DNA of 64,000 nt, taken from NCBI GenBank assembly GCA_951640195.1, contig OX621167.1:1612001-1676000 (forward strand), read 5' to 3'. This document shows positions 4,695 to 63,453 of the stretch, in pieces. The position numbers and the translations under genes were made by a program. The notes beneath the pieces were generated by a model, which was given only the letters and a program-made list of their open reading frames with translations, had not been told where the DNA came from and searched no databases. This DNA comes from Porpolomopsis calyptriformis (taxonomy: Eukaryota; Basidiomycota; Agaricomycetes; Agaricales; Hygrophoraceae). How positions within the stretch are numbered: the stretch's first letter is position 1; each line of letters opens with the position of its first letter.

Positions 4695-7396
4695 ATGTCA
4701 GCCTCCACCAATGAATCAAAGAGGACATTCCCCTGCCTCACTCCCACTAATTGGGGGCAGTGGGCTGACAACATGGAGGCTTACCTTCACACCAAAGAAC
4801 TCTGGGAGTATGTGGATGGATCTCTGCCTAGGCCTACTGCTGCTGACCCTGTCAAACCTACCCCTGCTGAAATCACTGAGCTTAGGGATTGGAACCAGAA
4901 ATCTGGCAGAGCTAGTGGAGAGATATGGCTTGCCATTGAGGACAACCAGAAGGTGCATGTGAAGGATGCCAAAGCTGACCCTGCAGCAATGTGGGCTGAG
5001 CTAGAGGCTGTCCATCTGCAGAAGAGACCAGGAACCCGCTTCAATGCCTATGATGCGCTGTTCAGTATTAAGAAGGATGATGCTGAAACCCTGCCTGCCT
5101 TAATGGCTAGAGCTGATAAAGCTCTGCAGGATATCAAAGCTCTCTGTCCATCTAACTTCACACTGGACAACCTGGATAAAGAACTTCTCTGTATGACCCT
5201 CATCTGTGCCCTTCCTGCTGAATACAACAACTTTGCATCCTCCCTCCTACTCATTGACTCCCTTGATATCGATAAACTCCAATCTGCCTTCCAGAATGAA
5301 GAGAGCCAGCAGCTTGCCAGAAATGTCTCCTCCTCATCTCCCAGCCTTGCCTACCAATCATCATCATCTGCTTTGCTTTGCTCCTTCTGTGGCAAAACCA
5401 ACCACACAGAGGACAAGTGCTTCAAGAAGCAGAAGGCCTCTGCTGATGCCAAACACCAGACTGCCCAATGGCAAGGACGTGGTCGAGGTGCTAGAGGTAG
5501 AGGCAACAAGCCTGCTGCAAAAGAAGCATCTGAAGATACCACCAATGCCAACACTGCTACCATTGAATTTGCTGGTCATGCAAGTGCTCTCTCTTCATCC
5601 CATCGCTCCCTATGGCTCAAGTCTCAATCTTGTATTGACTTGAACACTGATACAGGTGCTACATCACATATGACCCCTCACAAACACTGGTTTTGCTCAT
5701 ATTCTCCCCATGTCACTGCTATTGAACTAGCTGACCATTCAACAATCTACTCTGCTGGTATTGGTTCAGTTGAGTTCCAACCAGTCATAGATGGTATACC
5801 CAAGCGACCAGTTGTATTTCATGATGTACTCCATGTCCCTGATCTTGGCAGTAATCTACTTTCACTCTTCCACCTTACTCGTGTTAAACAATATACCATT
5901 TCAATCCAACAATCTCGAGTTGAGTTCTATTATCACAATGAGCTCCATTTCACTGCCTCCATCAATGAGCGCAACATTGGCTATCTTGATGGCAAGATCA
6001 TTGTTCCTCAGTCAGCTCAGTCAGCTCAGTCAACCCTTCCCTTGGATCTTACTCTGTGGCACCAGCGTTGCTCTCACCTTAACTTTGGTGATTTGAAGCA
6101 TATGCACCTCCATAAGCTTGTCTCAGGCATGGTCATCCATTCTAGCTCACCTCCAGACCCTATCTGTGAACCATGCATCTTTGGAAAGCAGCACCGTCAT
6201 AATATCCCTAAGACAGCCTCTCGTCGAACCTCTCTTCTTGCACTTGTCCACACAGACTTAAAGGGCCCTCTCCCTGTTCAGACACCAGAGGGATACCATT
6301 ATTGGCAACCCTTCATTGATGACAAGTCAAGGTTCATGGTGATTGCTTTCCTGAGACGTAAAACAGAAGCTCTTGTTGCATTCAAGCAATTCAAGGCTTA
6401 TGCTGAGACCAAACTTGGAAGACGCCTTCAGATGTCTAGGGATGATAAAGGAGGTGAATTCATGCGTCAGCACACTGAGCCAAATGAACCTCATCAAAAT
6501 ATAGCTGAGCGCGCAAATGAAGATATTGCTGCTGCTGCCACTGCACTGCTGGTTCATGCTAAACTCCCTCCCTCCTTTTGGGTACTTGCTGTCTCTACCT
6601 ATGTGCATACCAGGAACAGGACACCTACTTCTGCTTTGAATGGAGACACTCCATATTTCCACTGGAAAGGGAAGAAACCAGACATCTCTTACTTCCGTAT
6701 CTTTGGCTGCCTTGCCTATGTGCTAGTGCGCCAAGAGAAGAGGAAAGCACTCCAACCTCATTCTAGGAAGTGCATCTTTGTTGGTTACCCTGATGGTGTG
6801 AAAGCATGGAAGTTCTGGGACCCAGTGGCTAAGAAGATCATTATCAGCAGTCATGCTGTGTTTGATGAAAGGTGCTTTCCTGGCAACTCTACTGTGGCTA
6901 TAAATCTAGTCTCTTCCCCTTCTATATTACCTGATTACTCTGCACCCTCTGGACCATCTGTAGTGGTGCTGGATCAAGGGGGAGATGATAACCATAGTGT
7001 TGATACAGCACCACACCCAGTACTATCTTTGCCACAAATTGCACCTATACCTGGTCCCAAATCCACTCTCTGCTGTCCCAGTTCCATCTGCACATAGGGC
7101 ACCTGCCTCTGATCCACCTAGACCTTCAAGATGTCAAAACCCTCCTTGTGCTAGTTGTCCCCAAGGCTCCCTTAATGAGACTCTACTTGGTCGTCAATCC
7201 TCTGTGCCTCCCCAATCCACTCCCTCTCCAACTCCAAACAGCGCTTCTCCACCTGCTTCTACTCCTGACCCACTTGCAATATCACCCCCTGCTTCTCATC
7301 AAATCCATTCACCTCCATTATCTCCAGTCAATGAGTCTAGCAGTGATGATGAACTTCTGCTCAAGGACTCTAGTGATGGTGAACTTGAGTATGCAG
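4695..7396 (+). pseudogene. Ty1/copia gag-protease-integrase, copy 2 (3' truncated)
   Basis: The reading frame opens at 4695, in the context usual for agaricomycete copia gag (MSAS then LTPTNWGQW), and runs to 7097. An earlier in-frame ATG at 4581 lies in the leader and was not chosen. Domains: gag of the UBN2 type, zinc knuckle CSFCGKTNHTEDKC, protease DTGATSHMT, integrase HHCC finger (LWHQRCSH...CEPC), and the integrase core with HTDLKGP and AERAN. A one-base insertion near 7060 shifts the frame. Coding similarity continues in the next frame to 7396 and stops dead at an inverted LTR, so RT and RNase H are absent. Confidence 0.92.
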
Positions 7397-16646: not shown

Positions 16647-17005
16647 TGTTAGATGGCAGTCTAGGGTTGATCGCAAGGTTTTACTTCAGGCTCTGGGTGT
16701 AGGGTTTTAAAGGGTTGGAAGACTACTGATTGGGGTGTTAACGAAAGAAACAGACTTATCCTAAGTCTATCTACTGCTAGCTTTATATACTAGTCAAGTA
16801 TGAGTCATGCTGACTATGTGTGAGTCGTAACGACTATGGATGAGTCATGTAGATAAGGAGAGTGATGGTAGACTAAATATAGATATGGCTTGGTCACCTT
16901 CTATTACTAAGCGGAGCTTGGGTGGCTAAGCGGTTATTGATGTAAACTGTCTGATGTAAATAGAGACAGACGAGTAAAGGAAAAAGAAAAAATATATCTC
17001 TGACA
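16647..17005 (-). repeat. A1 3' LTR
   Basis: 359 bp, TGTCAG...CTAACA in element orientation. A purine-rich stretch (TTTTTGTGGAGGTGAA) sits just inside it as the likely polypurine tract. Confidence 0.96.
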
Positions 17006-17284
17006 TTCACCTCCACAAAAAGGAAATTCGTCCCAAATTTTGAGAAGACCCTTTGAAGCGAAGGAAGGATGTCAAGAGGAGGTGTAAAGGGATGGTAGAG
17101 GTGGGTAGAGGGGAGATGAGATAGGTGAGCGATGAAGAGGAGGGATGAGTGGACAGATGTCGGATCAAAGACTATCCACTAGGTATACTTTTCCTCAACT
17201 CTCCAGTAGATATCACCTTCTCTAACCATACATCCAGAAGGGAGGTGTAAGGAATACTGTTCATTAGGGAACAGTGTCCACTCC

Positions 17285-17977
17285 CTAGGTTGCGCCATCA
17301 TAAACTGGGGGTTGAAGCAGGTGTCCATCTGGGTCAAACCAGTGGTAACGGCCATCCAACTCCCGGGCACGTCGCAACCAAGTTTCAGCCAGCTCCCTAC
17401 ACATTACAGCATTCTGCTCCAGGTCAAGGATCCTTTCGTACTTAGCATCCATCATTGAGTGGTACCCGTTCTGGGCAGTATAGAGTCAGTTGGCAACACG
17501 ATGGATGCGGTGCGAGATGGGGTCTTCGGGGATAGTGGGGGTGGTGATGTCGGATTCGTCCTGGTCCGGTATAACCATCAAAAGTTGGCGCCCAACTTGG
17601 TACGCCTCCAGCCAATCTTCAAGTTGATTCTTCTTGTCGTCAAAGTCGCTGTCCTTGTCGAACGTGTACCAGTGACGGTTGTAGTTAAGTTCGCATCGAT
17701 GTGCTCCAGAGATAAAAGGGACGTAGGTTTCGGGGCACCCAGATAGGTGCTTGACCTTGGCAAAGGGGAGCCCTCGGTAGTTACAATTTTGTCCTGGCTT
17801 GTCAATAGTATCGGTACGTCGTTTTGGCTTCTTGAACCATCAGGTAACCAAGACACTGTCGGACGAGGAAGAGGAGGAAGAAGAATCGGGGGGGAGGTTG
17901 GAGGTAGAAGCGGTGGGGTTCCCTCGGGGTGGACGCCTCCCAGTCGACTTGCGGGCGTAATGAACTTCACGGGGCAT
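17285..17977 (-). pseudogene. A1 additional ORF (between pol and 3' LTR), 230 codons
   Basis: Same length and frame as the A2 ORF at 55625-56317. A basic/Pro N-terminus (MPREVHYARKSTGRRPP) and a run of eight Ser lead into a conserved domain with YVPFISGAHRCELNYNRHWYT and a helical C-terminus (AETWLRRARELDGRYHWFD). TGA codons replace Arg near 17836 and in the NRL segment near 17490. It lies about 115 bp after the chromodomain stop. Function unknown; it has no similarity I recognise to env, gag or nucleases. Confidence 0.7.
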
Positions 17978-18091
17978 TTCGTGCTTCTTTTGATGATTGT
18001 TGGAAAGGGGAAGTCCTTATAATTGTCGGAGATTGAAAAGGAGAAATGGAGATTCAACGATCGTGATGTTGGTAGTATTCGTAAAAGAGAG

Positions 18092-21000
18092 TTAAATCGC
18101 TGCTTGAATAGACTTTTCATAATTCATTAAGATGTCTTTTGCGTGCTTGAGGTTCCATCGTGGTTCCCAGGTGGCTGCCTCTATTGGGTAGCCTTTCCAC
18201 TTGATTAGATATTGTCGGTTTCGCTTTCCTGGGGTGATTTAAGATACGTTCCACTTCATACTCGGGTTCTCCCTCAATCACATCTGGAGGCGGTCGGAGA
18301 TTGTCATCTTCTCTGATTGGGGGGTGGAGATCAAGATTCTCCTCTAGAGCCTTAAGTAGTGAAACGTGAAACACGGGATAAATCCTCCATGACAGCGGTA
18401 ATTTTAGTCGGTAAGCCACAGGCGATACTTGTTTTAGAATTATAAAAGGTCCGAGCTGGCGGACATCCAGTTTCTTCGCGGGCCAGCTAGTTTTCAAATT
18501 CTTGGCATCAAGCCAGACCCTTTGTCCTTCGTAAAACGTGGGTTCCTTTTGATGTTTTCAATCGGTATAGAGCTTCATTGAGTTAGCGGTCTTTTGAAGA
18601 GACTCTTCAGCATTCTCTCTAGCTCTAGTAAGCTGCATGTAAAACTCGTTGGCATCGGGATTTGAGGTTTGGGTTGGAACTGATAAGGGGGTGTGAGGGT
18701 GTCGACCATATTCAAGCCAGAAGAGGGATTGGTGAGTGGAGGAATGTTCTCAGTTGTTATAAGCAAACTCCACTGGAGCTAACCAATCTTTCCAATCATC
18801 TTGCATGAAGTTAGTGTAGAGCCATACGTACTGCTCTAACTCTTGATTGGTTCGTTCGGTTTGTCCATCTGTTTGGGGGTGATAGGCGGTAGAAAGCCCA
18901 GAAGTGGTTCCTAGGAGTTCATTTAATGACGTAGCGAATTTTGATGAGAACTGGGTTCCTCAATCAGTAATGATCTTCTCTGGCCATCCATGGTGCTTCC
19001 AGACATGTTCTTGAAACAGCGCAGCAGTTCCTTTAGTAGATAGGTTTCCAGTTGTTGGGATGAAGTGAGCTCGTTTAGTGAATCTGTCCACCACAACTAG
19101 AATAGCATCAAATCCTTTCAAATTAGGGAGTTCCACGATTAGATCAGCAGTGATCTGTTGCCACAGTTTAGTAGGAGGGGGTAACAGTTGGAGAAGTCCA
19201 GTGGGTTTCTGTGGATAAACCTTGGTCTGTTGACAAGCAAGGCAGGACTTCACATAATTGGTGATATCTTGTGGGGCACCTTCCCATGTGTAATTACGGA
19301 GGAGCAGTTCCTTCGTCTTCTCAATGCCGGGATGGCCACCAGTGGGTGTGTCATGGGTCAATCGAATAATTTCTGTGCGCAAAGATACGTCCTTTGGCAC
19401 AACTATACGATCTCCAGCATCGCGCACAATGCCATCTACGTGGGTGTATCCGGAAGAGGGATCTTCAATTTTGGCCATGATCTCGAGAGGTAGGGGGGAA
19501 TGAAAACAAAGCTTGGATAAAAAGTTGGGGGACGACAAACTGATAATTGCATTGATGAAAAGCGCATTGACAAAAAGTTCTTTTGGCAGAAGGACCTTGT
19601 CCTCCACCTCCTCATAAGACTCTGGGTAATGATCCGGATGTTTGGAGAGTCCATCAGCCTTATTCTTGATTCTAGGCTGGTAGCTGATTCTGAACCAAAA
19701 GCGAGCTAAAAACTCAGACCATCTAGCCTGGCATCTAGAGAGTTGGTGACTGGTTATGAAGTATTGGAGGGACTGGTTGTCAGTCTTGATCATAATGGGT
19801 TGTCGTGTCCCTTGCAGGAGGTATCTCCATTCATTCAAGGCAGATATAATGGCTAAAAGCTCTTGGTCATGGGTAGGGTAATTTCGTTCAGCTGGGAGGA
19901 GGGTCTTGGAGTAGAAGCCAATGGGGTGCCAATCTTCTTCATCATTCTCTTTCTGGGTTAAGACTGCACCCAGTGCAACACCAGAGGCATCCATCTCCAG
20001 AAGGTAAGAAAGGTCTGGCTTCAGGGTTCTCAAAACAGGAGCAGAGGTAAGTGCATTCTTGAGGGTATCAAAAGCACATTGTTGCCTAGGGGTCCAAATC
20101 CATTCTTGATCCTTTCATAGGAGCTCATTGAGAGGACGAGCAATCAGGGAGTAATCCTTGATAAACCTTTGCCAAAAGTTGGCAGTGCCAAGGAAGGATT
20201 GGAGATCTCATTTCTTCTGGGGGATAGGCTAGGTTCTGATCGCCTCAACCTTCTTGGGGTTGATAGCAATGTGGCCTTTTGAGATCATCATCCCTAGATA
20301 AATCACTTCCTTTTTCTCGAACTGGCACTTGATGGGTTTGCAGGACAGTTGATTCTTCTCCATGATCTCTAGAGTTCGTTCCGTCCAATAGGTGAGTTCA
20401 TTGAGGTCCTTTCCCATGATCAAGATATCGTCAATATAGATATGGACCTGCTTGGAATCGATAACCTCTTTGAAGAGAACGTCGATCATTCATTGGAAGG
20501 AGGCAGGCAAGTTTTGCATTCCAAAGAACATAACGGTGGGCTCAAACAGCCCTCATCGAGTGTTGAAGGCTCCTTTCCATTCGTCTCCTTCTTTGATACG
20601 AATATTGTTAAAGCCCCATCGGATATCCATAACTGTGAATAGTTCCGCCTCTAACAACTTGGTCTGTTGAATAATCTCAGAGATGAGAGGTAAGGGATAA
20701 GCATCTGGGATTGTGTGAGCATTCAGATAGCAATAGTCTTGGATTGGATGTAGTCCAGCATCTTGTCCTTGGGCATTAACTTCTTCACCTTTGGCAGTAA
20801 AGAAGAATGAGGCAGCCTGTTTGGAGTTCGATCGTCGTATTCGTCCACTTGCAAGTTGTTTCTCCAAGAATTCATTCAGCTTTCCTTGTTCATACTCAGT
20901 GAGTTTGTACACCTTTCCAATCTTGGGTCTAAAGGTAGGTTCGAGATCGATTGCATGGTCAAATTCTGGTCGTCGTGGGGGAAGTTCATCGAAGGTAGTC

Positions 21001-21669
21001 TTCATAAACACCTTCCAGTGCCTCCAGTATTTCTTCGGCACATACTTCTTCATATCTTCCTCCACAGTAGTGGGTCTTGCATGGTCTCCCAGTGAGACCA
21101 ATCTGATAATCTTGGCATAGGAGTCGCCATTCAATATAGAGCCTACTCATGACACTATCACTCTAGCCTGAGAAGTCTTGGTTGGGGCCACAGTCTGATG
21201 TGAAGTCAGTGTTCCAGCCTTCTAGTCAACCAGGGGATCGTTACGTTTGAGCCACGGGTAGCCAAGGATAACCTATATCATATCTCCTAAATTTGTCACT
21301 TCCAAACGGGTTCGTTCCCTAGGAAAATCTGGCATCTCCAACCACAGGTCTACAGCATATTCAATGGGACCTCCTCGGTTGTCTGTCCCATCTGCATTCC
21401 GCATGGGGATTGGTCCTTCCAATCGATAAAAAGGGATATCGCGCTCCTGCACAAAGTTCCAGTTTATAAAGCATCCAGAGGCGCCAGAGTCTATCAATGC
21501 ACTGGCAGCAATTCGTCTACCAGTGTCTGTAGTTTCCAACCAAGGGGTATGGTCAAAGCTTCTTCGCTCAAATCAAGTGCACCAAGAATTTGGGAAATAG
21601 ATTGTATAGGGGTAGTGGTACACATAGAAAAGGAGTCCGCAACGCATGAGCTATTGTCCGGACTGTTCA
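18092..21669 (-). pseudogene. A1 pol (protease, RT, RNase H, integrase, chromodomain)
   Basis: Follows gag in the -1 frame. Protease ALIDSGASGCF (21480-21510), RT with YIDDILIMG (20415-20440), RNase H with EMDASGVALG and DNQSLQYF, the integrase H2C2 finger and catalytic core (TADLIVELP; IITD then stop near 18960), and a C-terminal chromodomain (EPEYEVERILNH then KWKGYP near 18190-18260). At least six stops break it, several being TGA at Arg positions. A2 has the same layout with different lesions. Confidence 0.93.
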
Positions 21670-23076
21670 AAAACCCTGTTTCTCCAAAGCTCTCTTTAGC
21701 TCTTCTTTCCTCTTAGGCTCCCAGTTGACGATGCCACACTTCTCGAAGTCTTGACAAGAATCTTCATTGGAGTTAACCTCCTCAATCGAGGCTGAGGTCT
21801 CCAGAACTTGAATATTTCTCCCTCAACCAGGTTTCTTTCCTCCACGACCTCTAGCTGCTGGGGTGAAGGAGCGGCTTCCAGAACCAGAAGTACTTGTCCT
21901 AGGAGCATTGGGACAAGAACTGGCAAAGTGGCCAAATCATCCACAGTTGAAACATGCTCCTTTGGGAATTCCTCCTAGTGAAGCAGGCTTCTCTTCTTGT
22001 TTGATTCTGGGGGCAGCAGGGTTGGAATAGGTGGAGGGACCAGCAGGTGGTCCTTGTCGGTAGGGGGTGTTGGTGATGCGAGTGTTACGAGTCTGGGGCT
22101 TAGAAGATGTTCTAGCCAGGAATTCTCGATGTCATCTGTCAAGTTCTGCAGCACAAGACTGCCATTCAAACAGGGTGGTGGGTTGACGATCTGAGAGGTA
22201 GATCTGTCGCAAAAGGGAGGGGTTGAGTTCGTCTTTATACAAAGTCACTGAAGCTTCTTGTCCGTATCCAGTATCATGGGCCCATCGATTGAAATTGATG
22301 TTGTACTCCTCTGCGCTCTTGTTGAACTGCTTGACGTCCTTGATCTTCAGTTGAGCAGTTGACTTGGGGTCCAAGTCTCCAAAGTCTCGGGTGAGGGCTT
22401 GTTCAAAGACAGCCCAATCAGCACCAACCCAGTTCAACATTGTGTAAGCGTCTACTTGATGCTCAGCCCATGGTTCTGCATTTCCTCCAATCATAAACGA
22501 CAAGGCATAGATAATCTTGTCGGCCTCTGAGATTCCTGGTTATCCCAAATGATTCAGCTTCACTTGACGCAAGAAATTGTGAAGCTTGGTGGGGTCACCA
22601 GAGAATTCATCAGGAGGGTTCATCTTGATCTTGGCGGGGGCAGGGGCAGGGGCAGGGGCAGGGACAGGTTGGGGGAATACTGGGGGTGCTTGGAAGGGTT
22701 GGGGAAATGGCCCAAGAGGGGCAGGGACAGGTTGGGGGCCTATGAGGTTGGCCATCAATACTTGAAGTTGTTGTTCGATTCTATGACTCGCTTGCGCTTG
22801 GTCTTGTTGGACCTGCAGCAATTGTTGATAATCCTGCTTCATGATCTCGAAGGCTACGCGTGGATCTTCTTCTTCATCCTCATCATTGTCCTCAGCTCGA
22901 CCTTTCCCTTTTGAGTGAGAGGGACCCGCTTGTTCTTGTTCTTGTTCTTGTTCTTCTTCTTGGGCAGGGTCAACTGTCTCGTCGGGGATGGGAGCTGGGG
23001 CAGGAGGGAGAGAGCCTTCCTGGGAGAGAGGGATAGCAGGGTGAGGGATAGTGGATGATGAACGAGTCAAAACCAT
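21667..23076 (-). pseudogene. A1 gag
   Basis: The start is ATG 23076 (MVLTRSSST). Pro/Gln-rich N-terminus with a Glu-Gln repeat, a retrotransposon gag domain (MNPPDEFSGDPTKLHNFLRQVKL) and a zinc knuckle ACFNCG...GHFASSC. There is a stop at 22540 in place of Arg and a TGA inside the knuckle. The frame closes at TGA 21667-21669 directly after the slippery heptamer. Confidence 0.92.
21670..21676 (-). promoter_or_regulatory. A1 gag-pol -1 frameshift heptamer GGGTTTT
   Basis: In gag phase it reads CAG GGT TTT TGA, fitting X XXY YYZ with the stop immediately after. Slipping back one base enters the pol frame. The same site occurs in A2, F1 and F2. Confidence 0.75.
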
Positions 23077-23256
23077 TGGTGGAACGATGGCAGTTGGATA
23101 TTGGGGAGCTTGACGGGAATACAAGGGGAGAGAGCAAGCCTAATTGATGTTGATGTCTGGGTGGTGAAATTGATCTGGTGGGTGAAGACCTTCAGCGCTA
23201 GCCAGACAGAGTAGAGGTTGTATAGCATGGAGTGAGCAAGAAGGAAGTCTGTTTCT

Positions 23257-23615
23257 TGTTAGACAGCAGTCTAGGGTTGATTGCAAGGTTTTACTTCAGG
23301 CTCTGGGTGTAGGGTTTTAAAGGGTTGGAAGACTACTGATTGGGGTGTTAACGAAAGAAACAGACTTATCCTAAGTCTATCTACTGCTAGCTTTATATAC
23401 TAGTCAAGTATGAGTCATGCTGACTACGTGTGAGTCATAACAACTATGGATGAGTCATGTAGATAAGGAGAGTGATGGTAGACTAAATATAGATATGGCT
23501 TGGTCACCTTCTATTACTAAGCGGAGCTTGGGTGGCTAAGCGGTTATTGATGTAAACTGTCTGATGTAAATAGAGACAGACGAGCAAAGGAAAAAGAAAA
23601 AATATATCTCTGACA
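23257..23615 (-). repeat. A1 5' LTR
   Basis: 359 bp. In element orientation it carries TATATAAA and, 32 nt further, AAGTCTGTTTCTT (23355-23367), exactly complementary to the 13 nt overlapping its inner edge (23245-23257). Confidence 0.96.
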
Positions 23616-24150
23616 GTATTCGACCGATCTCCTGTACTTGATGAGGGTCTCTCTCATTGTAAGATCTTGTCGTGTCAAGCCCCTCAATGGCTCGACAATC
23701 TTCCAGCATTTGGGAAATGAGGGCATGGGTAGTGGTATTCCTGCAATCGATCCAGTTTCGCTTTTTCTCTTGCTCAAGCATCCAGAGTTTGCATTTGAGT
23801 GCATCATGACTGTCCTTCCAAAATATAATACATTTCTCCATCAACTTCAACTCTGCCTTTGTTGCCGTCAGCTCCACTTGCAACTCGCAATTCCACTGTC
23901 TGAGACTTTCATTGTTAACATTCAAGCAGGTGATGGTGACATTAGGATCTTTGGGGGGAGGAGTTGCCTCAGTATTGAAAAGATCGGCGGCAGTCATGTA
24001 ACATTGTTAGCATAGTTGCCTAGAAATAGGGATGGCAGTAGTGGAGGAGGGACTAGGGGTAGGGGAATGGGCGCAAGAAGGGGGAATTTGTCCTTGACGA
24101 TGAGTAGCAACTTGACATTTAGGTTGGGGGGTATGAGTGGCAGGTATCTT
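23616..24150 (-). pseudogene. F1 additional ORF, 5' part (coiled coil)
   Basis: Lies between pol stop (24295) and the A1 insertion. The N-terminal part resembles F2 (PATHTP...QGQIP) but its ATG is lost. It then reads TAADLFNTEATPPPKDPNVTIT and a leucine/glutamate-rich coiled coil (NCELQVELTATKAELKLMEK), a Trp-rich segment and LTMRETLIKYRRSVEY, with one frameshift near 23660. Its 3' part is at 16456-16646. Function unknown. Confidence 0.72.
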
Positions 24151-42528: not shown

Positions 42529-42740
42529 TATCACAACTGTAGTTGCACCTCTTTTTGTTAATTACAAGGCAGGCTTTGGAGCTTAATAAGTCTAAGAGGA
42601 TATAGAAAAATGTTCTGATAGGAACATCTTCATAAAGGGTAATGATTCCTTCACTATTTAGTTTGAGTTCTATGAAGAAGTTCTATTGTAGGTTAAATCC
42701 ATTGTGTGCCTCTGCTGAGAGTTTTGGGAATATAGGCATG
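42529..42740 (-). pseudogene. L1 short divergent ORF
   Basis: Same protein as at 63243 in L2 (MPIFPKLSAEAHNGF...), with a TAG in place of Gln-Asn near 42674. Reading out of the element it meets a stop four codons outside. Confidence 0.5.
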
Positions 42741-43246
42741 AATAGTTAGCTTAATTGGTTCAGGGTTATGTTTCTCTTTCCTTGTCTGATGGAAAGGAAG
42801 TCTGATGATTCTGATTGCATTCATGCTACTACAAGTAATCTCACAGGAGGACAAAGTGATGATCCACTTTGCCCTCAGGGTTTATATAGTATTTCTAAAA
42901 TAGGAGTCATTATGAGTCAGCCTCTGCAGTCACCCCTTTTTCTGTTGTTCACTACCTTCAGTTTAAGGTTTACCCTTATTCCTAGTCATGCTGCATAAGG
43001 CTGTGTGCTTCTAATGACTTGACTCTATTGAGCATAGCCTCCTGCAGCACCAGGCTGTGTTGTCTCATAACTTATTTCTATTGTTCCCTAAGTTATGAGA
43101 TTACTGCTGTTTCTGTTTCTTGTCTGGTGTATCAGGTTTCTCTTCTTCAGCTGAGGAAACTCCTTTTGGTCTTTCCTTTGTCTATAGGCATATAAAAGGT
43201 GAGGAGTTGTATCCCTACACTTCAGTTCAATCTTTGTTCAATCATC

Positions 43247-44075
43247 ATAACTCCCTCCCACCAAGGCTACTATGTCTGTTTCTTCAAGCAGTCTAGGGTT
43301 GTGCATTGCACTGCCCCCATCTTTCTTGATTGTGATTCTTTTCATTACTATCTTCAGCATATTCCTTCCAACGCTGACCTCTGCTGGTTGTCTTTCTCCT
43401 GTTTTGCTTGCAGTAGCAAGCACAAGGTCAAGAAGTGTCCATATGTTCACTGGCCAATCCAGCATGCTTGTGGTCTGATGGAGGACCCACTTAGTGAGTA
43501 TCTTGTTTTGTCTTTATTAGGCTTTGTTTGTTGATAATAGGCTTTCCCCTTCTTAGCTTGGGATGATGATACCCCTCCCCCTACTTCCCAGCTCCCTTTG
43601 GAGGAGTAGGTCAATTGGGGGTCTGATAAGTATCCAAACTCCCTTCCTGCTATTAAGAAGGAGGTAGTTGACTGGGCTGCTAGTCCCCCATTCTGTCCTT
43701 GGATGCCTAGTCCATTGAGTTCTTTGTCTAGTGGTAAGGCTCTCAACTCTCTTACCCTCTTCATAGTTATTTATTCCTTCTTCATTAGTTGAAGACTTGT
43801 TGGCATCATTGACTAATATTAATGTCAAGATCAAGGAAGAAGAGATTCCACCTAGTTTGTAGAGTCCCACCAATGATTGGTTAGGTAAGGAAGCGAGAAA
43901 GATTGTGATGAGTTTTGTGGAGGGGAAGGCTGCTGAGTTGCAGGCCTCTAGTAGAGATACTAACAGGGCAATCTATTAGGGAAATAAGTTGGCTGCATTA
44001 GATGGTCAAGTAGTCTCAAGTTTTGTGGAGTTCCTGAGGGATAGTATGGTGCAGGAGATAGCCAAGATGGATTAG
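43247..44075 (+). pseudogene. L1 copy of the three-exon Cys-cluster gene
   Basis: Aligns along its length to the L2 gene, with the same introns after MEDPL and after SSLSS. Inactivated by ATG to ATA at 43247, TAG in exon 2 (LPLEE then stop) and TAG at two Trp codons in exon 3 (near 43861 and 43976). The upstream TATA (CATATAAAAGG, near 43190) is intact. Confidence 0.7.
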
Positions 44076-44175
44076 TTTAGATAGCCAATCAGACACAGAC
44101 TCCCCCTTTTGTACAAATAGTCTCTGCTGCCAATAAAGATAGCCTCCTTCCAAAAAGGAAATGGTATAAAAACAA

Positions 44176-44216
44176 AGAAAAGAGAAGAAAAGAGAAGAAA
44201 AGAGAAGAAAAGAGCA
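44176..44216 (+). repeat. Purine microsatellite
   Basis: Tandem AAGAAAAGAG units near the 3' end of L1; L2 has a shorter version, so length varies between copies. Confidence 0.7.
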
Positions 44217-44255
44217 GAATTTTAAGAGAGTGAATGCCAATTTCATAACAGGCAT

Positions 44256-49482: not shown

Positions 49483-49989
49483 AAGGTTTGGATGATTTGC
49501 CTAATATTACGGTGATACAACCCCTTGGTCCCTTGAGCTCTGGAGGATATGTTTTATATATCTATGTGATCCTCAGGACATCTACTACACTACTATGATG
49601 TCCCTGACTACGCGATTTGGCTTCCTGTCCAGTGATTTATCTCCGAATTCTTCGATCCTTCGATTCACAATCACAGCTCATATCAAAGAATGCATCTGAT
49701 AGCCAGACATCCATTGTGTATATTTCCATCGTTTCCATTAACCCTTTCACTGGTGGCTTCATTCAGAAGTCTCATCCCTTTACTATATAGCATATAAAGG
49801 GATCTTTGTTTTCACAGATATATTTACTTGTAGATATGTTTGTATCATAGAGAAGGAAGATAGATTCCATTGTCCCACGTCTAGTCCTTCATGTTTGAGC
49901 CTCTTCGACTACCTCTAGCACTCTAGAGAGTGCTCCAACTTTCCAACTTCTTCTAGTTCTTTGATTTTTACAATTTCTTTGATAGCTCC

Positions 49990-50348
49990 TGTCAGAGATA
50001 TATTTTTTCCTTTTCCTTTGCTCATCTATTCCCATTTACATCAGACAGTTTACACCAATAGCCGCTTAGCCACCCAAGCTCCACTTAGTAATACAAGGTG
50101 ACCAAGCCATATCTATATTTAGTCAACCATCACTCTCCTTATCTACATGACTCATCCATAGTCGTTACGACTCACACATAGTCAATATGACTCATACTTA
50201 GCTAGTATATAAAGCTAGCAGTAGATAGACTTAGGATAAGTCTGTTTCTTTCGTTAACACCCCAATCAGTAGTCTTCCAACCCTTTAAAACCCTACACCC
50301 AGAGCCTGAAGTAAAACCTTGCGATCAACCCTAGACTGCTGTCTAACA
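49990..50348 (+). repeat. A2 5' LTR
   Basis: TATATAAA at 50206-50213; AAGTCTGTTTCTT at 50238-50250 is exactly complementary to AAGAAACAGACTT at 50348-50360, which spans the LTR inner edge. Confidence 0.96.
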
Positions 50349-50360
50349 AGAAACAGACTT
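50348..50360 (+). promoter_or_regulatory. A2 self-complementary primer-binding site
   Basis: AAGAAACAGACTT pairs over 13 nt with the LTR segment 32 nt below the TATA box, i.e. with the probable 5' end of the transcript. It does not start with TGG, as a site for a tRNA 3' CCA end would. Confidence 0.7.
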
Positions 50361-50528
50361 CCTTCTTGCTCACTCCACGCTATACAACCCCTACTCTGTC
50401 TGGCCAGTGCTGAAGGTCTTCACCCACGAGATCAATTTCACCACCCAGACATTAACATCAATTAGGCTTGCTCTCTCCCCTTGTATTCCTGTCAAGCCCC
50501 CTAATATCCAACTGCCACCGTTCCACCA

Positions 50529-51932
50529 ATGGTTTTGACTCGTTCATCATCCACTATCCCTCACCCTGCTATCCCTCTCTCCCAGGAAGGCTCTCTCCCT
50601 CCTGCCCCAGCTCCCATCCCCGACGAGATGGTTGACCCTGCCCAAGAAGAAGAAGAACAAGAAGAAGAAGAATAAGCAGGTCCCTCTCACTCAAAAGGGA
50701 AAGGTCGAGCTGAGGACAATGATGAGGATGAAGAAGAAGATCCACATGTAGCCTTCGAGATCATGAAGCAGGATTATCAACAATTGCTGCAGGTCCAACA
50801 AGACCAAGCGCAAGCGAGTCATAGAATCGAACAACAACTCCAAGTATTGATGGCCAACCTCATAGGCCCCCAACCTGTCCCTGCCCCTCTTGGGCTATTC
50901 CCACAACCTCTCCAAGCACCCCCAGTATTCCCCCAACCTGCCCCTGCCCCTGCCCCTGCCCCCGCCAAGATCAAAATGAACCCTCCTGACAAATTCTCTG
51001 GTGATCCCACCAAGCTTCGCAATTTCCTGTGTCAAGTGAAGCTGAACCATTTGGGACGACCAGGAATCTCAGAGGCCGACAAGATTATCTATGCCTTGTT
51101 GTTCATGATCGGAGGAAATGCAGAACCATGGGCTGAGCGTCAAGTAGACGCTTACACAACGTTGAACTGGGTTGGTGCTGATTGGGCTGTCTTTGAACAA
51201 GCCCTCGCCTGAGACTTTGGAGACTTGGACCCCAAGTCAACTGCTCAACTGAAGATCAAGGATGTCAAGCAGTTCAACAAGAGCGCAGAGGAGTATAACA
51301 TCAATTTCAATCAATGGGCCTATGATACTGGATACGGACAAGAAGCTTTGACAACTTTATATAAAGATGGACTCAACCCCTCCCTTTTGCGACAGATCTA
51401 CCTTTCAGATCGTCAACCCACCACCCTCTTTGAATGGCAGTCTCGTGTTGCTGAACTTGACAGACGACATCGAGAATTTTTGGCTAGAACATCTTCTAAG
51501 CCCCAGACTCGCAACACTCGCATCACCAACACCCCCTACCGACAAGGACCACCTGCTGGTCCCTCCACCTATTCCAACCCTGCTGCCCCCAGAATCAAAC
51601 AAGAAGAAAAGCCTGCTTCACTAGGAGGAATTCCCAAAGGAGCATATTTCAACTGTGGACGATTTGGCCACTTTGCCAGTTCTTGTCCCAATGCTCCTAG
51701 GACGAGTACTTCTGGTTCTGGAAGCTGCCCCTTCACCCCAGCAGCTAGAGGTTGTGGAGGAAAGAAACCTGGTCGAGGAAGAAATGTTCGAGTTCTGGAG
51801 ACCTCAGCCTCGATTGAGGAGGTCAACTCCAATGAAGATTCTCATCAAGACTTCGAGAAGTGTGGTATCGTCAACTGGGAGCCTAAGAGGAAAGAAGAGC
51901 TGAAGAGAGCTTTGGAGAAACAGGGTTTTTGA
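50529..51932 (+). pseudogene. A2 gag
   Basis: ATG 50529 (MVLTRSSST), an acidic E/D-rich stretch, the coiled segment QQLLQVQQDQAQASHRIEQQ, Pro/Ala repeats, gag domain MNPPDKFSGDPTKLRNFL, and knuckle YFNCGRFGHFASSC with the first Cys changed to Tyr (Cys in A1). Stops at 50674 (TAA) and 51210 (TGA for Arg). The frame ends at TGA 51930-51932. Confidence 0.93.
51923..51929 (+). promoter_or_regulatory. A2 gag-pol -1 frameshift heptamer GGGTTTT
   Basis: CAG GGT TTT TGA in gag phase; stepping back one base gives G-F-L-N-S and the pol frame, open to 52086. Confidence 0.78.
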
Positions 51933-54900
51933 ACAGTCCGGACAATAGCTCGTGTGTTGCGGACTCCTTTTCTATGTGTACCACTACCCCTATGCAATCT
52001 ATTTCCCAAATTCTTGGTGCACTTGATTCGAGCGAAGAAGCTTTAACCATACCCCTTTGGTTGGAGACCACAGACACTGGTAGATGAATTGCCGCCAGTG
52101 CATTGATAGACTCTGGCGCCTCTGGATGCTTTATAAACTGGAATTTTGTGCAGGAGCGCGATATCCCTTTTTATCGATTGGAAGAACCAATCCCTGTGTG
52201 GAACGCAGATGGGACAGACAACCGAGGAGGTCCCATCGAATATGCTGTAGACCTGTGGATGGAGACGCCAGATTTTCCTAGGGAACGAACCCATTTGGAA
52301 GTGACGAATTTAGGAGATATGATACAGGTTATCCTCAGCTACCCGTGGCTCAAACGTAACGATCCCCTGGTTGACTGGAAGGCTGGAACACTGACTTCAC
52401 GTCAGACTGTGGCCCCAACCAAGACTTCTCAGGCTGGAGTGATAGTGTCACGAGTAGGCTCTACGTTGAATGGCAACTCCTACGCCAAGATTATCAGATT
52501 GGTCTCACTGGGAGACCATGCAAGACCCACTACTGTGGAGGAAGATATGAAGAAGTATGTGCCGAAGAAATACTGGAGGCACTGGAAGGTGTTTATGAAG
52601 ACCACCTTTGATGAACTTCCCCCACGACGACCAGAATTTGACCATGCAATCAATCTCGAACCTACCTTTAGACCCAAGATCGGAAAGGTGTACAAACTCA
52701 CTGAGTACGAACAGGGAAAGCTGAATGAATTCCTGGAGGAACAACTTGCAAGTGGACGAATACGACGATCAAACTCCAAACAAGCTGCCTCGTTCTTCTT
52801 TGCTACTAAAGGTGAAGAAGTTAATGCCCAAGGACAAGATGCTGGACTACGTCCAATCCAAGACTATCGCTATCTGAATGCTCACACAATCCCAGATGCC
52901 TATCCCTTACCTCTCATCTCTGAGATTATTCAACAGACCAAGTTATCAGAAGCGGAACTGTTCACAGTCATGGATATCCGATGGGGCTTTAGCAATATTC
53001 GTATCAAAGAAGGAGACGAATGGAAAGGAGCCTTCAACACTCGACGAGGGCTGTTTGAGCCCACCGTTATGTTCTTTGGAATGCGAAACTCGCCTGCCTC
53101 CTTCCAACGAATGATCGACGTTCTCTTCAAAGAGGTTATCGATTCCAAGCAGGTCTATATCTATATTGACGATATCCTGATCATGGGAAAGGACCTCACC
53201 GAACTCACCTATTGGATGGAACGAACTCTAGAGATCATGGAGAAGAATCAACTGTCCTGCAAACCCGTCAAGTGCCAGTTCGAGAAAAAGGAAGTGATTT
53301 ATCTGGGGATGATGATCTCAAAAGGCCACATTGCTATTAACCCCAAGAAGGTTGAGGCGATCAGAACCTGGCCTATCCCCCAGAAGAAACGAGATCTCCA
53401 ATCCTTCCTTGGCACTGCCAACTTTTGGCGGAGGTTTATCAAGGATTACTCCCTGATTGCTCGTCCTCTTAATGAGCTCCTATGAAAGGATCAAGAATGG
53501 ATTTGGACCCCTAAGCAACAACATGCTTTTGATACCCTCAAGAATGCACTTACCTCTGCTCCTGTTTTGAGGACCCCGAAGCCAGACCTTCCTTACCTTC
53601 TGGAGACGGATGCTTCTGGTGTTGCACTGGGTGCAGTCTTGACCCAGAAAGAGAATGACGAAGAAGATTGGCATCCCATTGGCTTCTACTCCAAGACCCT
53701 CCTCCCAGCTGAACGAAATTACCCCACCCATGACCAAGAGCTTTTGGCCATCATATCTGCCTTGAATGAATGGAGATACCTTCTACAAGGGACACGACAG
53801 CCTATTATGATCAAGACTGATAACCAGTCCCTCCAATATTTCATGACCAGTCATCAACTCTCCAGGCGCCAGGCTAGATGGTCTGAATTTTTAGCTCGCT
53901 TTTGGTTCAGAATCAGCTACCAGCCTAGGATCAAGAATAAGGCTGATGGACTCTCCAAGCGTCCAGATCATTACCCGGAGTCTTATGAGGAGGTGGAGGA
54001 CAAGGTCCTTCTGCCAAAAGAACTTTTTGTCAATGCGCTTTTCATCAATGCGATTATCAGTTTATCGTCCCCCAACTTTTTATCCAAGCTTTGTTTTCAT
54101 TCCCCCCTACCTCTCGAGATCATGGCCAAAATTGAAGATCCCTCTTCCGGATACACCCACATAGATGGCATTGTGCGCGATGCTGGAGATCGTATAGTTG
54201 TGCCAAAGGATATATCTTTGCGCACAGAAATTATTCGATTGACCCACGACACACCCACTGGTGGCCATCCCGGCATTGAGAAGACGAAGGAACTGCTCCT
54301 CTGTAATTACACATGGGAAGGTGCCCCACAAGATATCACCAATTACGTGAAGTCCTGCCTTGCTTGTCAACAGACCAAGGTTTACCCACAGAAACCCACT
54401 GGACTTCTCCAACCGTTACCCCCTCCTACTAAACCATGGCAACAGATCACTGCTGATCTAATCGTGGAACTCCCCAATTCAAAAGGATTTGATGCTATTC
54501 TAGTTGTGGTGGACAGATTCACCAAACGGGCTCACTTCATCCCAACAACCGGAAACCTATCTGCTAAAGGAACTGCTGCGCTGTTTCAAGAACATGTCTG
54601 GAAACACCATGGATGGCCAGAGAAGATCATCACCGATCGAGGAACCCAATTCTCATCAAAATTCGCTACGTCATTGAACGAACTCCTAGGAACCACTTCT
54701 GGGCTTTCTACCGCCTATCACCCCCAAACAGACGGACAAACCGAACGAACCAATCAAGAGTTAGAGCAGTATGTACGGCTCTACACTAACTTCATGCAAG
54801 ACGATTGGAAAGATTGGTTAGCTCCGGCGGAGTTCACTTATAACAACCGAGAACATTCCTCCACTCACCAATCCCCCTTCTGGCTTGAATATGGCCGACA

Positions 54901-55510
54901 CCCTCACACCCCCTTATCAGTTCCAACCCAAACCTCAAATCCCAATGCCAACGAGTTTTATGTGCAGCTCACTAGGGCTAGAGAGAATGCTGAAGAGTCT
55001 CTCCAAAAGACCGCTAACTCAATGAAGCTCTATGCCAATTGAAAACGTCAAAAGGAACCCACGTTTTACGAAGGACAAAGGGTCTGGCTTGATGCCAAGA
55101 ATTTGAAAACTGGCCGGCCCGCAAAGAAACTGGATGTCCACTGGCTCGGACCTTTTATAATTCTAAAACAAGTATCGCCTGTGGCTTACCGACTAAAGCT
55201 ACCGCTGTCATGGAGGATTCATCCCGTGTTTCACGTTTCGCTACTCAAGGCTCTAGAAGAGAATCTCGATCTCCACCCCCCGATCAGAGAAGATGACAAT
55301 CTCCGACCACCTCCAGATGTGATCGAAGGAGAGCCTGAGTATGAAGTGGAATGTATCTTAAATCACACCCCAGGAAAACGAAACTGACAATATCTAATCA
55401 AGTGGAAAGGCTACCCGATAGAGGCAGCCACCTGGGAACCATGATGGAACCTCAAGCATGCAAAAGACGTCTTAATGAATTATGAAAAGTCTATTCAAGC
55501 AGCGATTTAA
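51930..55510 (+). pseudogene. A2 pol (protease, RT, RNase H, integrase, chromodomain)
   Basis: The best-preserved pol in the window. Protease ALIDSGASGCFINW (52100-52145); RT with RPIQDYRYLNAHTIPDAYPLP and YIDDILIMG (53155-53190); RNase H ETDASGVALGAVL and DNQSLQYF; integrase H2C2 finger (HPGIEKTKELL...CLACQQTK, 54270-54385); core TADLIVELP, IITDRGTQFSSKF and HPQTDGQTERTNQELEQY; chromodomain EPEYEVECILNH...YLIKWKGYP (55330-55430); stop 55508. Lesions are few: TGA at 52086, 53483, 55040, 55386 and 55443, most or all at Arg positions. RT through integrase is otherwise collinear. Confidence 0.95.
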
Positions 55511-55624
55511 CTCTCTTTTACGAATACTACCGACATCACGATCATTGAATCTCCTTTTCTCCTTTTCAATCTCCGACAATTATAAGGACTTCCCCTTTCC
55601 AACAATCATCAAAAGAAGCATGAA

Positions 55625-56317
55625 ATGCCCCGTGAAGTTCATTACGCCCACAAGTCGACTGGGAGGCGTCCACCCTGAGGGAACCCCACCGCTTCTACCT
55701 CCAACCTCCCCCCCGATTCTTCTTCCTCCTCTTCCTCGTCCGACAGTGTCTTGGTTACCCGACGGTTCAAGAAGCCGAAGCAACGTACCGATACTATCAA
55801 CAAGCTGGGACGAAACCGTAACTATCGAGGGCTCCCCTTTGCCAAGGTTGAGCACCTATCTGGGTGTCCCGAAACCTACGTCCCATTTATTTTTGGAGCA
55901 CGTCGATGCGAACTTAACTACGACCGTCACTGGTACACGTTCGACAAGGACAGCGACTTTGACAACAAGAAGAATCAACTCGAAGATTGGCTGGAGGTGT
56001 ACCAAGTTGGGCGCCAACTTTTGATGGTTATACCGGACCAGGATGAATCCGACATCACCACCCCCACTATCCCTGAAGACCCCATCTCACACTGCATCCA
56101 TCGCGTTGCTGACCGACTCTATACTGCCCGGAATGGGTACCGCTCGATGATGGATGCCAAGTACGAAAGGATCCTTGACCTGGAGGAGAATGCTGTGATG
56201 TGTAGGGAGCTGGCTGAAACTTGGTTGCGACGTGCCCGGGAGTTGGATGGCCGTTACCACTGGTTTGACCCAGATGGACACCTGCTTCAACCCCCAGTTT
56301 ATGATGGCGCGACCTAG
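55625..56317 (+). pseudogene. A2 additional ORF downstream of pol, 230 codons
   Basis: Starts MPREVHYAHKSTGRRPP at 55625, one TGA in place of Arg at about codon 18, then a Ser-run and an uninterrupted frame to 56317. Conserved block YVPFIFGARRCELNYDRHWYTFDKDSDFD, then an acidic segment (IPDQDESDITTPTIPEDPIS) and two predicted helices (IHRVADRLYTARNGYR; MCRELAETWLRRARELDG) ending YHWFDPDGHLLQPPVYDG. Same length in A1. No signal peptide, membrane segment or catalytic motif seen. A role as accessory capsid, RNA-binding or chromatin factor is conceivable but unsupported. Confidence 0.75.
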
Positions 56318-56596
56318 GGATTGGATGCTATTCCCGAATGAACAGTATTCCTTACGCCTCCCTTCTGGATGTGTGGTTAGAGAAGGTGATATCTACTGGA
56401 GAGTTGAGGAAAAGTATACTTAGTGGATAGTCTTTGATCCAACAACTATCCACTCATCCCTCCTCTTCATCGCTCACCTATCTCATCACCCCTCTACCCA
56501 CCTCTACCATCCCTTTACACCTCCCCTTGACACCCTTCCTTCACTTTGAAGGGTCTTCTCAAAATTCGGGACGAATTTCCTTTTTGTGGAGGTGAA

Positions 56597-56955
56597 TGTC
56601 AGAGATATATTTTTTCCTTTTCCTTTGCTCGTCTATTCCCATTTACATCAGACAGTTTACACCAATAGCCACTTAGCCACCCAAGCTCCGCTTAGTAATA
56701 CAAGGTGACCAAGCCATATCTATATTTAGTCAACCATCACTCTCCTTATCTACATGACTCATCCATAGTCGTTACGACTCACATGTAGTCAATATGACTC
56801 ATACTTAGCTAGTATATAAAGCTAGCAGTAGATAGACTTAGGATAAGTCTGTTTCTTTCGTTAACACCCCAATCAGTAGTCTTCCAACCCTTTAAAACCC
56901 TACACCCAGAGCCTGAAGTAAAACCTTGCGATCAACCCTAGACTGCCGTCTAACA
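56597..56955 (+). repeat. A2 3' LTR
   Basis: 359 bp, preceded by the polypurine-like TTTTTGTGGAGGTGAA and followed by TSD GCTCC. Confidence 0.96.
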
Positions 56956-61350: not shown

Positions 61351-61902
61351 CTGGCCCCTCCACTACCACTACCATCCCCATCTCCAGGCAGCTGCACTGA
61401 CACCCTCACGCCACTGCCGCTGACTTTCTTAGTAATGAATCAACTCCTCCCCCTGAAGACCCCAACATCACCATCACCCATTTAAATATCAACAATGAAA
61501 GCCTTGGATAATTGAATTGTGAGTTGCGAGCAGAGTTAACAGCAGTGAAAGCAGAGTTGAAAGGGATGGAGAAACGTATTATGTTCTAGAAGGAAAGCCA
61601 CAACATGCTCAAATGCAAACTCTGGACACTCGAGCGAGAGAAAAAGTGAAACTAGGTCAATTGCAGAAATGTCACCACCTGTGCCATCATATCCTGAATG
61701 TTGGAGGATTGTTGAGCCATTGAAGGCTTGACACATTAAGACCTTTGTCATGAAATTGGCATTCACTCTCTTAAAATTCCTCTCTTTTCTTCGTTCTTTT
61801 CGTTTCTTTCTTATACCAGTTCTTTTGGGGGGAGGCTGTCTTTATTGGCAGTGGAAACTACTTGTACAAAGGGAGGAATCCATGTCCAACTAGCTAATTA
61901 TA

Positions 61903-62733
61903 CTAGTCCGTCTTGGCAATCTCCTGCACCATACTGTCCCTCAAGAACTCTACAAAACTCAACACTACTTGACCATCTATTGCAGCCAACTTATTACCCC
62001 AGTAGATTGCCCCATTGGTGTCACCACCAGAGGCCTGCAACTCGGCAGCCTTCCCTTCAATGAAACTCATCGCTATCTTTCTCGCTTCCTCACCCAACCA
62101 ATCGTTAGTGGGACTCCACAACAAACTGGGAGGAATTTCTTCCTCCTTGATCTTGACATTGACATTAGTCAACGACGATGACAAATCTTCCACTAAGAAT
62201 AAAGAGTCAATGATCATGAAGAAAGTGAGGGAATTGAGAAGCTTACCACTAGATAAAGAACTCAATGGACCAGGGGTCCAAGGATGGAAGGGGGGACTGG
62301 CAGCCCAGTCAACTGCCTCCTTCTTGACAGAAGGGAGGGAATCAGCCCACTTGTCAGACCCCCAATTAACCTGCTCCTCCAAAGGGAGCTGGGAAGTAGG
62401 GGGAGGGGCGTCATCATCCCAAGCTAAAGAAGGGAAAGCCTATTATCAACAAACACAGACTAATAAAGACAAAACAAAATACTCACCAAGCGGATCCTCC
62501 ATCAAGCCGCAAGCATGCTGGATTGGCCAGCGAACAAACGGACACTTCTTGACTTTGTACTTGCCACCGCAAGCAAAGCAGGAGAAAGAAGACCAACAGA
62601 GGTCAGCGTCGGAGGGGATGCGCTGGAGGTAGTAGTGAAACGAATCGCAATCGAGAAAGACAGGAGCAGTGTGGTGCACCACTCCAGACTGCTTGAAGAA
62701 TCGGATGTAGTGGCCTTGGTGGGAGGGAGTCAT
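61903..62733 (-). CDS. Unknown three-exon gene carried by element L2, 237 codons, apparently intact
   Basis: Exon 1 62733-62487, exon 2 62423-62247, exon 3 62192-61903. Introns begin GTGAGT and GTAAGC and end TTTAG and CTTAG; exon lengths sum to 714 nt with the frame kept and no internal stop. The ATG at 62733 lies about 50 bp after a TATA box (62783-62790). Exon 1 encodes a Cys cluster (C-x5-C-x2-C-x8-C-x10-C around DADLCWSSFSCFACGG and KKCPF). Exon 2 is acidic/Trp-rich (NWGSDKW, VDWAASPP). Exon 3 has VKIKEEEIPPSL and a helical C-terminus (EFLRDSMVQEIAKTD). A small zinc-binding protein is a guess. L1 has the same gene with four lesions. Confidence 0.65.
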
Positions 62734-63242
62734 GATGAATTGACAAGGATTGAACTGAAGCGTAGGGATACAACCCCACACCTTTTATATGCTCAGACAC
62801 AAAGGGAAGACCAAAAGGAGGTTCCTCAGTCAAAAGAAGAGAAACCTGATACGCCGGACAAGAGATAGAAACAACGGCGATCTCATGACTAGAAGAACAA
62901 TAGGAACCAGTCATGAGATAGCACAGCCTGATACTGCGGAAGGCTATGCCCAATAGAGTTGAGTCATCAAAACAACACAGCCTTCTGCAGTATAACTAAG
63001 AACAATGGCAAACCTTAAACCGGAGGCTGTGAACAATAGAAAATGGGGTGACTGCGGAAGCTGACTCATAGTGACTCCTATTTTAGAAATACTATATAAA
63101 CCCTGAGGGCAAAGCGGATCATCACTTCATCCTCCTGTGAGATTACTTGTAGTAGCACGAATGCAATCAGAATCATCAGACTTCTCTTCCATCAGAACAA
63201 GAAAAGAGAAACATAAACCTATAACTACTGAGCCAATCGTTC
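62734..63242. promoter_or_regulatory. Divergent promoter region of element L2
   Basis: About 510 bp between the two start codons. TATA boxes point both ways: TTTTATAT at 62783-62790 (minus gene) and TATATAAA at 63093-63100 (plus ORF). A motif around GCCTTCYGCAGTAT occurs twice in opposite orientations (about 62930-62945 and 62980-62995). CCTCAGGG-type sequence follows the plus TATA. Confidence 0.55.
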
Positions 63243-63453
63243 ATGCCCATATTCCCTAAACTCTCAGCAGAGGCACGCAACGGATTCAACTCACAGAACA
63301 ACTTCTTTGTAGAAGTAAAACTTAACTCAGGAGGAATCATCACCCTTTACGAGGATGTCCCCGTCAGAACTTTCTTCTACATCCTACTAGACTTATTAAG
63401 CTCCAAGGCTTGCCTTGTGATTGACGAAAAGACTTGCAACTACAGTTGTGACA
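63243..63453 (+). CDS. Short divergent ORF of element L2, open to the element end
   Basis: ATG 63243, MPIFPKLSAEARNGF then GGIITLYEDVPVRTFFYILLDLLSSKACLV and CNYSCDN at the terminus. No stop inside L: the frame continues into F2 sequence to 63569. The same protein, with one lesion, is in L1, where it meets a stop just outside. Hydrophobic middle segment. Unknown function; in a longer parent element it might continue or be spliced. Confidence 0.45.

Follow-up and report, generated by a model that had tools for sequence, protein, structure and literature searches.

A predicted spliced antisense gene under purifying selection within the U3 of a Ty3/gypsy chromovirus LTR

LTRs are usually seen as promoters and solo LTRs as scars. 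Genes within LTRs, spliced antisense genes and antisense accessory genes are each already known from separate systems. The LTR of MMTV is described as unusually long, about 1.3 kb, because it encodes the accessory protein sag (PMC3026287). HBZ of HTLV-1 and other HTLV antisense proteins are reported to derive from a spliced antisense transcript that starts in the 3' LTR (PMC3185765, PMC10186651). Antisense accessory genes of LTR elements have been described as the aORF-3R genes of plants (Grande gene23, RIRE2, Retand, and PvRetro13) and in the fungal element Boty, and gene23 of Grande is credited in the same articles with its own promoter and a nuclear product (PMC7264820, PMC11963269). In addition, the 5' end of the RNA is reported to prime reverse transcription in Tf1/sushi elements (PMC10085805). 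In the basidiomycete Porpolomopsis calyptriformis, conservation among the copies of a repeat called Element L indicates that the U3 of a Tf1/sushi-like Ty3/gypsy chromovirus very probably holds a complete, selected, and spliced antisense unit consisting of a TATA box, three exons encoding 237 aa, two introns, and an AATAAA signal. This high confidence covers the anatomy and the selected, spliced antisense gene and excludes its function. Here an LTR carries a selected, intron-containing protein gene, and the same LTR also carries the start of a second coding frame.

The window, a stretch of 64,000 nucleotides, contains two copies of the element, L2 and L1 (Table 1), which share 82.6% identity. 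The initial annotation described both as full-length copies with defined ends and 5-bp target site duplications (TSDs), and its coordinates proved exact; L2 measures 1708 bases with exact ends, and the two TSD halves of L1 differ by one transition. A paralogous unoccupied site elsewhere in the window matches both flanks of L2 through the TSD, the left flank at 74.7% over 391 positions and the right at 79.2% over 48. Among the best 40 of 294 genome candidates scored, 39 places besides L2 matched the query over positions 1-1708 (38 places) or 1-1706 (one place) at 91-97% identity, and one extra match was partial. At the fetched loci, the alignments started and stopped at most 5 bases from 61746 and 63453. 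The resulting alignment of 51 copies comprised L2, L1, the 39 other full-length matches, and 10 of 12 fetched divergent copies, leaving out L051 (partial match only) and L055 (interrupted), and its members were 82-97% identical to L2. A proposed check for further genomic copies with TSDs was productive, as exact 5-bp TSDs bordered 33 of the 51 copies (13/22, 15/19, and 5/10 by batch). Five of the 18 copies without a TSD (L010, L018, L019, L028, and L031) adjoin a primer-binding site (PBS) or a polypurine tract (PPT), an edge at which no TSD is expected.

Several arrangements of repeats were observed alongside. Two copies on different contigs, L014 (G000:C1:3715095-3716801) and L017 (G000:C9:385776-387482), have identical 15 bases on each side, which makes it probable that flanking DNA was copied along with them, within another repeat or through a segmental duplication. 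At G000:C9:1241154-1243822, a partial and a full LTR copy abut in the same orientation with one base in common. The window also holds two opposite-orientation copies of a 7-kb retrotransposon (16647-23616 and 49989-56955), which are 94.8% identical and have 360-bp LTRs that are 98% identical within each copy; in the copy at 49989-56955, RT, RNase H, and integrase domains fall in two long frames of 460 and 491 aa. In a 2.35-kb inverted repeat (1489-3835 and 5050-7396, 98.6% identical), each arm overlaps frames that encode Copia-type or retroviral pol domains.

Element L is not an independent mobile unit: it forms the 1.7-kb LTR of a Ty3/gypsy chromovirus whose self-priming site is of the Tf1 type. 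The initial annotation had left a choice between a giant solo LTR with cargo and a new kind of non-autonomous element, and had suggested asking whether copy pairs flank a PBS and pol. Such same-orientation pairs were found at C12:1370520-1379274, flanking 5341 bases with the composite TSD CATAC, and at C8:1854765-1863532, flanking 5356 bases with the composite TSD GTGAT. The internal region of the C8 copy encodes retroviral-type protease, reverse transcriptase, and RNase H domains, and that of the C12 copy encodes rve (integrase core), SH3_Tf2-1, and Chromo domains; a gag-like frame in the internal region gave a weak DUF4939 match below the cut-off, and in both copies stops break up the internal frames. 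The PPT of the C12 copy lies directly against the next LTR, and the chromodomain frame there stops just before it. The order PR-RT-RH-IN with a C-terminal chromodomain, by which Ty3/gypsy chromoviruses are recognised, was found with the domains pooled from two copies with interrupted frames, and the TG..CA ends, 5-bp TSDs, and paired copies around gag-pol are those of an LTR retrotransposon and its solo LTRs. The giant solo LTR with cargo was thus borne out by pairs flanking 5.3 kb with a self-priming PBS, a gag-like frame, PR, RT, RNase H, a chromodomain integrase, and a PPT, and the new kind of element received no support, since the same sequence occurs as paired LTRs around gag-pol.

With at most two mismatches allowed, 255 occurrences of the LTR promoter motif were counted genome-wide (reversed control, 0), a total that may include truncated LTRs or relatives and of which the 51 aligned copies represent about one fifth, in a sample skewed toward L2-like copies. 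The LTR-PBS junction occurs 16 times (reversed control, 1) and the PPT-LTR junction likewise 16 times, and for 15 of the 16 PBS junctions a correctly oriented PPT junction is found some 5 to 20 kb away within the contig. The disparity between 255 motifs and 16 + 16 junctions implies that most copies, L2 included, have no recognisable internal region; copies such as L2 that also have TSDs are consequently solo LTRs. The 33 aligned copies standing between exact TSDs without an internal region might instead be read as a non-autonomous 1.7-kb element moving as such with a captured gene, but the same-orientation pairs around gag-pol with PBS and PPT at their edges, the regular pairing of the two junctions, and the location of the self-primer inside the LTR itself leave this reading scarcely credible.

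Table 1. Features of Element L and related sites in the window (+, retrotransposon sense strand)
Feature	Position	Strand	Remarks
Paralogous unoccupied site matching both L2 flanks through the TSD	23616..24051	-	flank matches meet at ~23661-23665
Element L1, second LTR copy of the window	42529..44250	-	gene broken; TSD GGTAT/GGCAT
Left TSD of L2	61741..61745	none	ACCTT
Element L2, solo LTR (U3-R-U5) of a Ty3/gypsy chromovirus	61746..63453	+	
U3 (inferred)	61746..63120	+	up to predicted transcript start
AATAAA polyadenylation-like signal downstream of antisense gene, within LTR	61841..61846	-	40/51 copies
Antisense exon 3 and stop	61903..62192	-	
Antisense intron 2	62193..62246	-	54 nt; GT-AG kept 51/51
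Antisense exon 2	62247..62423	-	acidic, Trp-rich
Antisense intron 1	62424..62486	-	63 nt; GT-AG kept 51/51
Antisense exon 1	62487..62733	-	ATG at 62733; encodes conserved C52, C55, C64, H73, C75
Antisense gene TATA box, TATAAAA	62783..62789	-	TATA-like motif 51/51; heterozygosity 0.0 at seven columns
Sense TATA box, TATATAAA	63093..63100	+	51/51 aligned copies
R-U5 (inferred)	63121..63453	+	
Self-primer segment	63123-63133	+	one CpG transition in L2
First 70 codons of sense ORF0	63243..63453	+	continues past LTR end and PBS in full-length copies, 167 codons
Right TSD of L2	63454..63458	none	ACCTT

The PBS AGGACGAAGTG is complementary over 11 nt to CACTTCGTCCT, which lies about 30 nt past the start of TATATAAA, and the exact complement of CACTTCGTCCT is contained in TTAGGACGAAGTG, the first bases past the LTR. 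This complementarity places the predicted transcript start near 63121 and thereby delimits U3. A PBS complementary to the predicted transcript 5' end, as in Tf1/sushi self-priming, is accordingly present at the level of sequence. TATA boxes for both directions, as initially annotated, were found in all 51 aligned copies; in L2 they are 304 bases apart and point away from each other.

Downstream of the sense promoter, the frame ORF0 stays in frame across the LTR end and the PBS in all five full-length junctions read, of 16 known, and is open for 167 codons in three of them, with a stop at codon 92 in the other two. The short ORF reported in the other direction does exist on the plus strand, but it amounts to the first 70 codons of this longer frame. 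At L028:5496-5996, ORF0 spans the LTR end, the primer-binding site, and the overlap with the start of gag, which its codons 135-167 share in another frame. Substitutions among copies indicate that ORF0 is under selection too, with a ratio of 0.234 (0.187-0.289); the counts of synonymous to nonsynonymous differences, 30:24 for the internal stretch that precedes gag and 22:8 where the two frames overlap, are weak evidence from 10 non-independent pairs. Pfam and PDB sequence searches gave no convincing match for ORF0. In the genomic RNA, ORF0 probably comes first among the frames, and translation could pass on to gag through reinitiation, leaky scanning, or frameshift.

The three-exon gene lies wholly within U3, antisense to gag-pol. 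The description of the main gene of L2 as having consistent splice sites and 238 open codons including the stop is accurate (237 codons plus stop, GT-AG at both introns), whereas its presumed counterpart in L1 is broken, having lost the ATG and acquired premature stops. Across the 51 copies the frame is fully open with an ATG in 25 and broken in 26, so that the initial concern that all other copies might carry stops was not realised. Intron 1 measures 63 nt in 46 copies, 64 in two, 62 in two, and 60 in one; intron 2 measures 54 nt in 27 copies, 53 in 19, 55 in three, and 56 in two. The coding length nevertheless stays divisible by three in 49 of 51 copies; the two exceptions, L049 and L050, also carry 12 and 9 stops. 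In the first 41 copies, the exons contain just two gaps of 3 bases each and intron 2 contains five single-base gap columns, length changes that would shift the frame if intron 2 stayed in. Conserved GT-AG dinucleotides and intron borders, together with lengths that vary without loss of the frame, thus suggest that the antisense gene is spliced and presumably expressed. The AATAAA, of which about 0.17 would be expected by composition in 110 nt, is altered in 11 of the 51 copies. In the predicted product, the residues C52, C55, C64, H73, and C75 are conserved in 94-100% of the 51 copies, the tryptophan-containing middle encoded by exon 2 is acidic (pI 4.1), and so is the part encoded by exon 3 (pI 4.4).

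Comparison of the copies indicates that the protein encoded by the antisense gene is under purifying selection. Non-coding LTR bases supplied the neutral rates, which were corrected for CpN context; on this basis, the observed/expected N/S was 0.283 (bootstrap 0.241-0.327) over 25 disjoint pairs differing by 6% or more. A first neutral expectation, which distinguished CpG from other contexts and was superseded by the CpN contexts, gave results that agree. The dN/dS comparison that had been proposed across copies therefore came out at 0.28 (0.24-0.33), well below 1. Other pair sets gave 0.410 (25 pairs at least 3% apart), 0.314 (8 pairs at least 9% apart), and 0.493 (nearest pairs), and the weaker ratio in close pairs is compatible with a history in which selection acts on active elements and inserted copies then decay freely. 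When read as coding, the spacer, which is not an independent control because it overlaps the bases supplying the neutral rates, gave 0.834 (0.748-0.933) at the 6% limit, 0.943 at 3%, 0.981 at 9%, and 0.959 in nearest pairs. Under a simpler null with nearest pairs, the gene frame scored 0.556, the other frames of the gene strand 1.00 and 1.93, and the opposite-strand frames of the same exons 0.90, 0.67, and 2.04. A six-frame sliding scan placed the gene frame at about 0.2-0.45 in windows inside the exons; the mirrored opposite-strand frame was also lowered over the exons, to about 0.25-0.66, and single spacer windows fell to about 0.5, so that the scan alone is noisy.

The mean heterozygosity over sites never in CpG, calculated for the first 41 copies, was 0.022, 0.006, and 0.068 at codon positions 1, 2, and 3. 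For comparison, the spacer had 0.045, the short 5' leader 0.043, and the 3' part 0.094; intron 1, itself fairly conserved, had 0.033 and intron 2 had 0.047. This codon-position pattern, the scarcity of frameshifting exon indels, and the low selection ratio point to a protein, and they make it improbable that the antisense unit works only as RNA, for instance as dsRNA or antisense RNA damping the sense transcript, with an incidental open frame, even though antisense transcripts of LTR elements are known and some are described as non-coding (PMC7264820). An extra RNA effect beside the protein is possible.

In the non-coding parts of the 51 copies, C-to-T changes in nearest pairs reach 12-16% per site at CpG and 3.5-5.5% at CpA, and this excess at CpG, with a lesser one at CpA, is a methylation- or RIP-like signature. 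The premature stops at the tryptophan codons of L2 are all TAG, corresponding to CpA changes on the opposite strand.

A protein homologue search with the 237-aa product returned 340 candidates, none with E <= 1, from a database that seems poor in such fungal proteins, and a control search with the gag of the same element returned 3351 candidates, none with E <= 0.01. The missing homologue of the product accordingly says little, as the gag control suggests a database with few proteins of such fungi. Pfam gave no family match for the product or for its exons 1 and 3, the Cys/His cluster included; specifically, no bZIP domain was matched in the product, and the TRP28 domain (PF04195) of Retand-type aORF-3R was matched neither in the product nor in exons 1 or 3. 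The PDB sequence search yielded no convincing match for the antisense product. A DUF2112 match was rejected as below the cut-off and located in a frame running out of the LTR into the flank. A host homologue of the antisense gene was not found among the best 150 of 569 genome candidates, with libraries that seem to reach few fungal proteins.

The introns, TATA box, and polyadenylation-like signal resemble those of a host gene and could suggest one that was recently captured into the LTR and is carried passively. The gene occupies the same place with the same intron borders in all 51 aligned copies; hence it predates their divergence, and selection has acted meanwhile, which renders a recent capture quite unlikely. 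An ancient capture of a host gene is possible. The initial annotation took the retained introns as an argument against simple mRNA capture; this is a fair point, although the antisense position of the gene relative to the genomic RNA offers a simpler reason.

The anatomy suggests how a selected antisense gene within U3 could be maintained, with two back-to-back promoters in one LTR. The sense promoter would give rise to the genomic RNA from a start near 63121, with the RNA's own 5' end as primer, and the antisense promoter would produce a spliced mRNA for an accessory protein, which could end within the same LTR. The genomic RNA would hold the gene only as its complement, so that the introns should escape splicing; this antisense placement would explain why they are kept and suggests how an element copied through RNA retains spliceosomal introns indefinitely. 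Reverse transcription would then copy U3 to both ends, a new insertion regaining two intron-containing genes, and LTR-LTR recombination would leave a solo LTR still carrying one. The coding content of the LTR also gives a reason for its unusual length.

Regarding function, the Cys/His cluster and the acidic regions would suit a metal-binding regulatory protein; because the cluster matches no Pfam family, any assignment rests on analogy. By analogy with HBZ (PMC3185765) and gene23 of Grande (PMC7264820), as these are described there, the favoured role is to control transcription of the element itself or to help it escape silencing, and it is tentatively proposed that the product acts on the promoter or RNA of its own element as a regulator or as a protein that counters silencing. 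Solo LTRs could then act in trans on their parent elements. In a more speculative extension, which is rather doubtful at present, the U3 regulatory gene, its introns shielded by the antisense placement and its number doubled with each insertion, would make up to about 200 'dead' solo LTRs, many of them with an open frame, a trans-acting family controlling a few full-length elements.

Compared with the known systems, Element L combines features that occur apart elsewhere, and the combined form within an LTR appears unreported: none of the titles and abstracts returned by searches of open-licence PMC full texts gives an account of a whole spliced antisense gene inside an LTR, and the subscription literature could hold one. 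It resembles Tf1/sushi chromoviruses, as described in PMC10085805, in its chromodomain integrase and self-priming PBS, and differs from them in a 1.7-kb LTR with two coding regions and in an ORF beginning in R/U5 and running across the PBS. The aORF-3R genes and that of Boty are described as antisense ORFs between pol and the 3' LTR, whereas the gene of Element L lies inside the LTR; the word 'intron' is absent from the main text of PMC7264820 and PMC11963269, and the gene of Element L has two. With MMTV it shares a long LTR that encodes an accessory protein. The sag ORF lies in U3 in the sense direction, and its expression is described as relying on sense transcripts initiated in the 5' LTR or env and spliced to an acceptor just upstream of the ORF; the ORF of Element L is also in U3 but antisense, with promoter, exons, and introns all antisense inside U3. 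Finally, HBZ is described as having its start codon in an LTR exon and its body between env and the last tax exon, whereas all exons of the Element L gene are in the LTR, so that the gene can be present in a 5', a 3', or a solo LTR alike.
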